Source: Odontesthes bonariensis
Lineage: Eukaryota; Chordata; Actinopteri; Atheriniformes; Atherinopsidae
Length of the DNA stretch: 64,000 nt
NCBI RefSeq assembly: GCF_027942865.1
Contig: NC_134515.1
Span: 9,601,339 to 9,665,338 of the forward strand
Direction of reading: 5' to 3'
The translations under genes were made by a program, and so were the position numbers. A model generated the notes under the pieces. It saw nothing but the letters and a program-made list of their open reading frames with translations, was not told where the DNA came from and made no database searches. Shown piece after piece: positions 21,319 through 29,642 of this stretch; position 1 is the first letter of the stretch, and every line of letters starts with the position of its first letter.

Positions 21319-21368
21319 ATCGGCTCCACCTGGCCCCACTGGTTGGGGTTTATTAGGCAGAGCTTCAT
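21319..21368 (-). promoter_or_regulatory. SECIS element of sephs2 (type II)
   Basis: On the minus strand the core reads ATGA (21368-21365), then a 9-bp stem in which GCTCTGCCT (21363-21355) pairs completely with AGGTGGAGC (21331-21323), allowing G-U pairs. The 3' partner of the quartet is CGAT (21322-21319), supplying the opposing GA. The loop opens with AA (21354-21353), as required. It then forms a second short helix, CCCC with GGGG (21348-21345 with 21337-21334), which makes it form II. A looser basal pairing of CCAACC with GGTTGG lies outside the core. It lies about 690 nt past the stop codon, in the right place to recode the TGA of exon 1. Confidence 0.85.
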
Positions 21369-22058
21369 TAAAAAGGAGGAGTGGTTGGAACTCTGAGCTG
21401 GATGGCCAATCAGCTGAAACAGGCAGGAATCCTGGACATTGCCCCTGCTAATCCCAGAGGAAGCTGCTCAAGCCTTCCTCTGAGCTGTGTGGGCAGATCC
21501 AGGTGCCGGAATGGATGAACCGCTTCTTTTCAACATCATTCATTCACCAACATTTAATTTCATCCACTCACAAAAGTAGAAACAAATCACCTCAATCGGA
21601 TAAAAAAAAAAAAAAAAAAAATGTGCTCAGCCACTCAGATTCATACTCATTACTTTCTGAATGATTTGGAATGTTGTCCTTCTGTTATGGAAACATTCCT
21701 CAGTTCTCTATGGAAACATCTTTAGCATTCAGATAAATAACATGAAACCATTTGTTTGTATGGATCAGGAAAGAAAAGATGGAAACACGAGGCGTTACAC
21801 TCTAAACGAAAGGAAATGGGTCAGAACGGGCTGCATACTACCCCGAATTTACAGTATGGAAAGGTGAAAGATTCAACTTGCTCCAACAGCTTTTAACGAG
21901 ATGGATAAAGATGCCGTGTGCCGTCCAGTCTCATCCTCGGTGGATCACATGACACCGACTTTAGTCCGCGCGCTCTCAACATTTTGACTGAAAAACGAGG
22001 CGAACAGCTACCGAACAGACATACACAGAGCAGGCTGGTGTCAGAGAGGCGGCGGCGT

Positions 22059-28000: not shown

Positions 28001-29642
28001 AAAGTGTCCTCCCTGACCAACTAATTTTTTTTACAATTAAGCCTTCCCAGCATCTTCTCACAGTGCCCATCAGTTTCTTCAGTCCACATTTTAAGACTAT
28101 TTCCAAAACTTAAGAATTAGTCTGGCACGAATTACTAACCCAACCATTAATACTCTGATTAAACGCTTATTTAACTGTGGCAGGACACCCCTGGACCCAA
28201 GGAGACACAGTCTGGGCAACTCACACTTTAACCACTGACCCATACAGTGCAAAAAATCCATCCAATGAGGGAAAACTTTGCAACATTCCCATAACGTATG
28301 CACATAAGTGCCTCTTTCTGTCTACATTTCCAGCATGGAGCATCCTTGATTAAACCCATTCAATGTAATCTAGAAGGAGTGTAGTAATACCGATTGATTA
28401 TTTTATTTTCCCACGATTTACCATCACAGGTACAACCCAGACCTTTTTACCAAATCGTCCAGAGTTTATTGGTATTCCCAATTGTCCAGGGACGCCTTTC
28501 ATGCCACAGCCCAGGGCTTCTTCTAATATCACCTCTAACAAGTATGTATGTGCACAAACTTCCCTCTTGATCTTGTTTGTGAATGAAGTATTTTCAGAAC
28601 AACCTTCTGGATTATAAAAATGATCGTTGGCAAAATGCAGACTACCATTCTGTCAGTGATCTTCAATCCAGCGTCAAAAACATTAAGAAGTGTTTCCTGT
28701 GAGTAACTCACCATCATGTAGGGATCTTCCACCAGAGGATAAAAGAAATCGGTGGTCTGGACCAGTGACAGCCCTCCATGCCTCAGGGGAATCACACAAC
28801 TGTCCATACCAACGCCTAAAAGCACACCACATAATATGGGAAAGACAAGTTATCTCTGCTCAACTTATTTTAAATGCAACTGCTAATTTAAGTATATGCT
28901 TATCTGTGCTGTTTGATATTAAAATACAAGGATTTCTAGCTTCGTGGTCACTGTAAATGGCAATTATGTACAATTAAGAGTTTTTTTTAAATGGCAGAAA
29001 AGCACATACAGCCCTGCTCTTTTAAGAACAGAACTTCAGACTCAAGGCAACATAAATATTTTTGCTGAATCATACCTGCCCTCTGGTGATTTGACAGCTC
29101 TCTGTTAAATATTTATCATTTGTTCCAAGGCTCAAGTATGAGGCGAAGTTTAAACCTCAGGTCCCCAGAAGGTTTTATGATGCAACAGCCAAAGTGTATC
29201 AAAGTAATCTGTATTATTTTGCCGTTTACCATCCATCTGTCAAATTAGCCGGCGTGAGTTAACACAAGATAGCTAGATTAGCAACAGTTCGTTAGCTGAC
29301 TGAGGTTAGCGGCCGGGTTTTGGCAACACGGGGGGGATTGAGCTAACTTCACATTTGTTCCTCACCAAGCCGCGGACCAGGTAACTGTTGGCCGAACTCC
29401 GAAGCTTGGTCTCCGGCCTTCCCCGTCCCGTCGGCCCGGTCCGGCTCCAGTCCCGCCAGGAGTTTGAGCAGAGCCTCCTGCGGGACCTTGCATCCTCATC
29501 CTTTCAGGTCCGAAAAGGCTGTGAGACGGAACCCGCGCTCCAGGCCGTGCTCTTCGGGTTTGAAAGGCTTGTATCCGGGAGGAATACATCCCTCGGTTCC
29601 AACAAGCTCCACCGTGGGAGGTGGGGAAGTTGAGCTTGACAT
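22059..29642 (-). CDS. sephs2: Selenophosphate synthetase 2, a selenoprotein
   Basis: The enzyme makes selenophosphate from selenide and ATP, the selenium donor for Sec-tRNA. Coding exons are 29642-29366, 28815-28712, 25245-25138, 24667-24513, 23909-23819, 23582-23483, 22603-22391 and 22309-22059. The sum is 1299 nt, so 432 aa; human SEPHS2 is 448 aa. Exon 1 reads through an in-frame TGA at 29498-29496 in the context K-G-U-G-C-K, so residue 49 is selenocysteine at the catalytic position. Later exons give [37 protein letters not shown] and [14 protein letters not shown]. The variants [12 protein letters not shown] and [13 protein letters not shown] point to SEPHS2 and not SEPHS1. Mammalian SEPHS2 is an intronless retrocopy; this multi-exon form fits the ancestral vertebrate gene. 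The SECIS lies at 21319-21368. Expression should depend on selenium supply, since the enzyme needs Sec itself. Confidence 0.96.
22738..22830. repeat. hAT-type MITE fragment
   Basis: The sequence tagggccgagcgatgtggcc followed by aaaaatctcagattttt and an A/T tract matches one end of a very common teleost MITE (tagggctgggcgatatggcc). Only one end is present. It lies in sephs2 intron 6. Confidence 0.5.
26206..26520. repeat. Dispersed teleost repeat
   Basis: The stretch begins aatcagaatcagcctttatt and continues tgtcattgtacatggtacag. It then has AT-rich sequence and several attgcaca units (near 26438 and 26473). This layout is seen many times in fish genomes. I cannot name the family. It is in sephs2 intron 2. 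Confidence 0.45.
27885..28530 (-). mobile_element. Degraded L1-type LINE 3' fragment
   Basis: The minus-strand frame 28303-28097 gives [20 protein letters not shown] and then LPRLCLLG and [18 protein letters not shown]. This is the usual C-terminus of fish L1-like ORF2. Upstream sequence to about 28530 carries [12 protein letters not shown] residues in shifting frames with stops, so the copy is old. The 3' end is A-rich near 27890. It lies in sephs2 intron 2 and is from a different lineage than the LINE at 2.8 kb. Confidence 0.7.
29496..29498 (-). other. sephs2: Selenocysteine codon (TGA), Sec49 of sephs2
   Basis: TGA lies in frame within GGA-TGA-GGA-TGC-AAG (G-U-G-C-K), exactly where SPS2 proteins carry Sec and SPS1 paralogues carry another residue. 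The open frame continues for 384 codons after it across seven further exons. A SECIS is present downstream, so this is recoding and not a nonsense mutation. Confidence 0.95.

Follow-up and report, generated by a model that had tools for sequence, protein, structure and literature searches.

A multi-exon sephs2 gene with an in-frame TGA codon and a predicted type II SECIS element in a ray-finned-fish-like vertebrate

Within the window, by which we mean the whole 64,000-nucleotide stretch of DNA that was analysed, the minus strand carries a gene of eight coding exons from 29642 to 22059 (Table 1). All of its introns are GT-AG, and the product comprises 432 residues. The exon structure was obtained by enumerating nearby splice options, and two solutions remained, two residues apart at exon 7; the 432-residue solution was preferred because it retains AAGLMH, as in chain 3fd5 and in the sephs1 paralogue described below. 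The frame that opens with the ATG at 29642 has a single internal stop, a TGA. A first-pass annotation of this DNA had proposed an in-frame TGA in a multi-exon sephs2 gene with eight exons. Both proposals were borne out: the TGA is codon 49 of an open spliced frame, and splice enumeration returned eight exons with GT-AG at each junction.

Table 1. Positions of the sephs2 coding exons and of the candidate recoding and polyadenylation elements in the window
Feature	Positions	Strand	Basis
Coding exon 1 (ATG and predicted Sec TGA)	29366..29642	-	Splice-consistent frame; homology across the TGA
Predicted Sec TGA, codon 49	29496..29498	-	In-frame; Thr at the same place in the sephs1 paralogue and chain 3fd5
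Candidate Sec redefinition element (stem-loop beginning 8 nt past the TGA)	29449..29487	-	Fold, coding constraint included
Coding exon 2	28712..28815	-	Splice enumeration
Coding exon 3	25138..25245	-	Splice enumeration
Coding exon 4	24513..24667	-	Splice enumeration
Coding exon 5	23819..23909	-	Splice enumeration
Coding exon 6	23483..23582	-	Splice enumeration
Coding exon 7	22391..22603	-	Splice enumeration
Coding exon 8 (stop TAG, 22061-22059)	22059..22309	-	Splice enumeration
Predicted type II SECIS with helix I (core 21368-21320)	21291..21393	-	Folds, strict scan, top match of the model
AATAAA in the SECIS apical loop	21349..21354	-	Sequence
Distal AATAAA (SECIS retained in the mRNA if this site is used)	21240..21245	-	Sequence

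Several other features lie in the window. Neighbouring genes are marked by Adaptin_N (19126-19428, minus), NEMO (41150-41581, minus), and LSM (61816-62139, minus) matches, all above cut-off, and the LSM-domain neighbour looks snrpg-like by eye. Two copies of Tc1/mariner-like transposase fragments (12321-12680 and 60130-60429, both plus) share a 25-residue stretch, with Pfam HTH_Tnp_Tc3_2 matching the first fragment only. An open reading frame at 2744-3214 (plus) resembles zf-RVT, a zinc-binding domain of reverse transcriptases, at 23.1 bits, below the cut-off of 27.5. Furthermore, two opposite-orientation pairs, one identical (8760-8810 minus and 9616-9666 plus) and one nearly identical (11530-11583 plus and 11880-11933 minus), may represent the terminal inverted repeats of DNA transposons.

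Judged by its sequence, the sephs2 product is a selenophosphate synthetase. It matched chain 3fd5 ("Selenide, water dikinase 1"), which we take to be human SEPHS1, over residues 26 to 412 with an E value of 4.6e-186, and the alignment, made with C in the query for the Sec residue, is unbroken through the TGA position. The NCBIfam selD model TIGR00476 scored 267.9 bits (cut-off, 125), and Pfam AIRS (51.6 bits) and AIRS_C (64.4 bits) both exceeded their cut-offs; two narrower selD models scored below theirs. We also queried the genome (945 Mb, 187 contigs) with the protein, and 15 of 15 matches among the best candidates scored fell on the sephs2 locus or on contig C12, which carries sephs1. An AIRS_C family search had matched the window, C16, and C20 and had overlooked sephs1, which the protein query recovered. 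The AIRS_C matches on C16 and C20 were rejected, with only two weak protein matches between them (L008, E = 0.50; L009, E = 3.5); they may be other AIR-synthase-type genes, for example, GART or PFAS.

The sephs1 paralogue (SPS1-Thr) reads LKGTGCK, and the TGA of sephs2 sits where this paralogue and chain 3fd5 have Thr. Besides sequence similarity, the two genes have all seven sephs2 introns in common, in position and phase, according to splice enumeration of the paralogue, in line with the whole-gene duplication described in the literature (PMC4561486). In addition to Thr in place of Sec, sephs1 (L013) differs in having one extra intron that sephs2 lacks. This intron follows LKGTGCK directly, a few codons downstream of the Thr, and the stem-loop of sephs2 occupies the corresponding place.

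The 3' untranslated region (UTR) of sephs2 contains a SECIS-like element 690 nt downstream of the stop codon. Read from the letters, its quartet consists of ATGA (21368-21365) and GA (21321-21320), predicted to form non-Watson-Crick pairs. Helix II, which adjoins the quartet, has nine pairs (seven Watson-Crick and two G-U), and the extra apical helix is CCCCA/UGGGG, while helix I is formed by GAGUUCCAACC (21393-21383) paired with GGUUGGACUC (21300-21291). This anatomy suggests a type II element. The interval that the first-pass annotation had given for the complete read-out, with its limit at 21319, is too short, as helix I (to 21291) and the distal AATAAA fall outside it.

For comparison, we assembled other SECIS-like elements of the same genome. 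A model was built from seven of them, namely, L016, which has an Rfam match, and L014, L015, L024, L028, L029, and L038, which came from scans near selenoprotein-family matches; candidates at L031 and L034 and weaker second candidates were left out by eye. These elements are SECIS-like, and their placement in selenoprotein 3' UTRs is putative in each case. Of the neighboring protein matches, the one at L014 is interrupted by three stops that differ in kind, and the one at L015 has no stop. Of 70 helix cells in the seven elements, 92.9% are paired and 23 changed on both sides, although the scans required ATGA, AA, GA, and a good fold, so that the invariance of the letters and the high pairing arise in part by selection. 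A scan from base 1501, restricted to ATGA, gave no hairpin at or below -5 kcal/mol in L017, L018, L025, L026, L027, L035, and L036. When the model was run on eleven further loci (E up to 5), matches were obtained in three of the nine that are not sephs1 (L026, L027 with three, and L036). Neither of the two sephs1 loci gave a match, and 3.2 kb scanned at sephs1 held a single weak SECIS-like hairpin (-6.7 kcal/mol).

The element in the window differs from the others in the spacing of its AA. We sought AA 8 to 16 nt after ATGA in the seven model elements, one L026 match (with the quartet GTGA), and one L027 match, leaving the other matches out. The first AA lies at 12 nt in eight of these nine and at 13 nt in the ninth; in the window SECIS, AA occurs at 10, 13, and 14 nt. 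The distance favors the second A-run (21351-21349), which coincides with the last letters of the loop AATAAA, whereas the first A-run is 2 nt short of the usual distance. In contrast, the predicted stem geometry favors the first A-run, since the nine-pair stem ends directly before it and three unpaired bases separate the stem from the second. In either register, the AA spacing is unusual. The earlier claim that the SECIS satisfies each structural rule stands for the quartet letters, the nine-pair stem, and the extra helix, and goes somewhat too far for the AA distance.

The AATAAA inside the SECIS loop, also pointed out in the first-pass annotation, is real. A second AATAAA lies 109 nt beyond it, and an ATTAAA at 21558 precedes the SECIS. 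Downstream G/T content, scored over 41 nt, was highest at the loop site (0.71), followed by the distal site (0.66) and the ATTAAA (0.49), so that this crude measure does not favor the distal site over the loop site. Nonetheless, we favor the distal AATAAA as the probable signal, because the loop site is predicted to be structured and polyadenylation there would destroy the element. The loop AATAAA could instead be a used and regulated polyadenylation site that yields a SECIS-less isoform, as its perfect hexamer and the G/T-rich stretch downstream would allow; Mariotti and colleagues, in the part of their work cited here, speculated on SECIS-less SPS2 transcripts, with alternative polyadenylation among the means (PMC4561486). 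Against such an isoform stand the location of the hexamer within a structured loop and the presence of the second AATAAA farther on. Moreover, the overlap is not unique, as L029, one of the nine other SECIS-like elements, also has an AATAAA that overlaps its quartet, and none of the open-licence papers listed describes such a switch in its title or abstract opening. We consider regulated use of the loop site improbable.

We evaluated the SECIS by motif counts, shuffling, folding, and model scores. The loose motif ATGA..AA..GA occurs at chance level in the window (281 found versus 281.1 expected). A strict scan, which demanded nine or more pairs, seven or more of them Watson-Crick, and allowed AA only 8 to 12 nt after ATGA, so that the first A-run was scored, returned one fully paired core in the window, at 21368 on the minus strand. 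The fold-energy scans likewise accepted this element with the first A-run, and one of them ranked it best. In 300 shuffles of the window, 21 core matches arose in all, with 19 shuffles having one or more, and shuffling of the 859-nt 3' UTR gave a core match in 3 of 5,000 cases. For the inner 45 nt, the predicted fold has -19.8 kcal/mol (z = -2.76), equalled or bettered in 3 of 200 shuffles, while the 116-nt SECIS piece reaches a z of only -1.52 (13 of 200). Two further hairpins were discarded: one at 22460 (-17.6 kcal/mol) lies inside coding exon 7, and one at 58474 (58425-58479, minus), with one scan mismatch, 10.9 bits, and an E value of 7.7, was judged to be due to chance. The latter directly follows an exon that resembles plpbp by eye, in an open reading frame with no Pfam match.

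The model derived from the seven other elements placed 21373-21314 at the top of its seven window matches (E up to 10) with 18.1 bits, ahead of two matches at 14.3 bits; with an E value of only 0.21 over the 64 kb, the weight of this result lies in its rank and its position in the UTR. The Rfam SECIS families, on the other hand, gave no match to the 21368 element, whether at the gathering threshold or with E relaxed to 10. SECIS prediction, suggested by the first-pass annotation as a check, was thus split, with the strict scan, the folds, and the model accepting the 21368 core and Rfam missing it. The miss carries little weight, because Rfam SECIS_1 identified one element in the entire genome among the best 150 of 19,210 candidates.

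The stem-loop that follows the TGA has a predicted energy of -23.1 kcal/mol (z = -2.77), equalled or bettered in 4 of 200 shuffles. In a 102-nt piece, the same stem forms, but the total energy is at the chance level (z = -0.50; 64 of 200). The predicted fold fits the known Sec redefinition element; in the portion of the study cited, every eukaryotic SPS gene with a UGA was reported to have a stable stem-loop in this region (PMC4561486). The genome also contains a tRNA-Sec on C14, which scored 79.6 bits against a gathering score of 47 and was the sole one of 39 matches above gathering. Single-TGA matches make up 7 of 17 GPX rows and 4 of 6 deiodinase rows in the genome.

It could be argued that the 21368 hairpin is a product of chance, with the true SECIS elsewhere, or that the UGA is read through without any SECIS, aided by the stem-loop. 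The absence of an Rfam match, the unusual AA spacing, and a weaker hairpin at 21543 in the same UTR are in keeping with the former; the location of the stem-loop after the UGA is in keeping with the latter, and Sec-independent readthrough has been proposed for hymenopteran SPS1-UGA, according to the cited part of that study (PMC4561486). However, the 21368 element is the sole fully paired match, the best by energy, and the first with the model, and tRNA-Sec is present in the genome; we regard both proposals as very unlikely. That the locus is a decaying copy with the TGA as a disabling stop has almost no chance of being correct, for although the TGA interrupts the frame, it is the only premature stop and lies exactly at the Sec position, the splice sites are intact, the remaining frame is open, a SECIS lies downstream, and among the best candidates scored there is no better sephs2 copy, the one on C12 being sephs1 with Thr.

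The reading frame, the homology through the TGA, and the SECIS anatomy support the original proposal of a Sec-encoding multi-exon sephs2 gene with a type II SECIS. We assign a probability of about 96% to the reading in which the locus is an intact, multi-exon sephs2 gene of the SPS2a type from a ray-finned-fish-like vertebrate, with its UGA read as Sec by means of the type II SECIS. We infer that the gene is transcribed, that its UGA is recoded, that the enzyme is active, and, from the size and gene content of the genome, that the source is a ray-finned fish. The sephs2 mRNA would carry the UGA at codon 49, the stem-loop just downstream, and the SECIS in the 3' UTR, with a spliced UGA-to-SECIS distance of 1,842 nt. 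By established biology, SBP2 would bind the SECIS and act together with EFSec and Sec-tRNA to insert selenocysteine at the UGA. The enzyme would then make selenophosphate, from which all selenocysteine, including that of the enzyme itself, receives its selenium.

The exon structure bears on what may happen when recoding fails. The UGA lies 130 nt upstream of the first exon junction, and all seven junctions are downstream of it. As stated in the cited part of one report, a selenoprotein mRNA whose UGA precedes an intron by 50 to 55 nt or more is regarded as susceptible to nonsense-mediated decay (PMC7596060); at 130 nt, failed recoding should therefore route the sephs2 mRNA to this pathway. Because the enzyme supplies selenium for its own UGA, such decay would make a self-reinforcing loop. 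One may extend this to a view of the intron-bearing sephs2 gene as a selenium switch, in which the decay loop was broken in placentals by way of the intronless copy and the loop AATAAA adds a SECIS-less state; the fish mRNA should then be decay-sensitive and the intronless mRNA not. We find this view doubtful. In yellow catfish, sephs2 mRNA rose on excess selenium, and the cited portion of the study names no fall on a marginal diet (PMC8067157), a point against the decay loop. In islets of female mice, loss of Sbp2 lowered Sephs2 mRNA, and Sephs2 was counted among decay-prone transcripts in the section cited (PMC7596060). Dependence on SBP2 alone is no proof of junction-dependent decay, however, since placental SPS2 is intronless (PMC3316567) and yet its mRNA falls. 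None of the open-licence papers listed describes a sephs2 decay loop in its title or abstract opening.

The closest known system is SPS2a, the multi-exon SPS2 of non-mammalian vertebrates and monotremes, which, as described in the cited part of the source, likewise has multiple exons, a Sec close to the N-terminus, and a 3' UTR SECIS (PMC3316567). The opossum UGA-to-SECIS distances given there, 1,805 nt for the single-exon and 1,542 nt for the multi-exon gene, are near that found here. We found no substantive difference from SPS2a; the apical loop contains an AATAAA, and the AA spacing sets the SECIS apart from the other elements of this genome that were compared. The intronless SEPHS2 of placentals, SPS2b, is the same enzyme with Sec and a SECIS, but is a retrocopy without introns, and the contrast drawn in the first-pass annotation between eight exons and an intronless mammalian retrocopy is correct and, on the evidence of the cited text, already published (PMC3316567). 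In one published study, SPS2 was a selenoprotein in every vertebrate covered. Thus, the sephs2 gene described here is a known gene, with published SPS2a biology, in one more genome.

If the decay loop were true, it would provide a concrete reason why, in placental mammals, the older gene could give way to the intronless copy. The expectation that gene callers mishandle the Sec codon agrees with a published survey, the cited part of which states that most vertebrate selenoprotein genes in Ensembl and GenBank are annotated without the Sec codon, names SEPHS2 models that start downstream of it as more abundant, and finds the dedicated RefSeq procedure much better (PMC12822975). The sephs2 gene in this window offers a clear illustration of a gene that routine annotation frequently mishandles.
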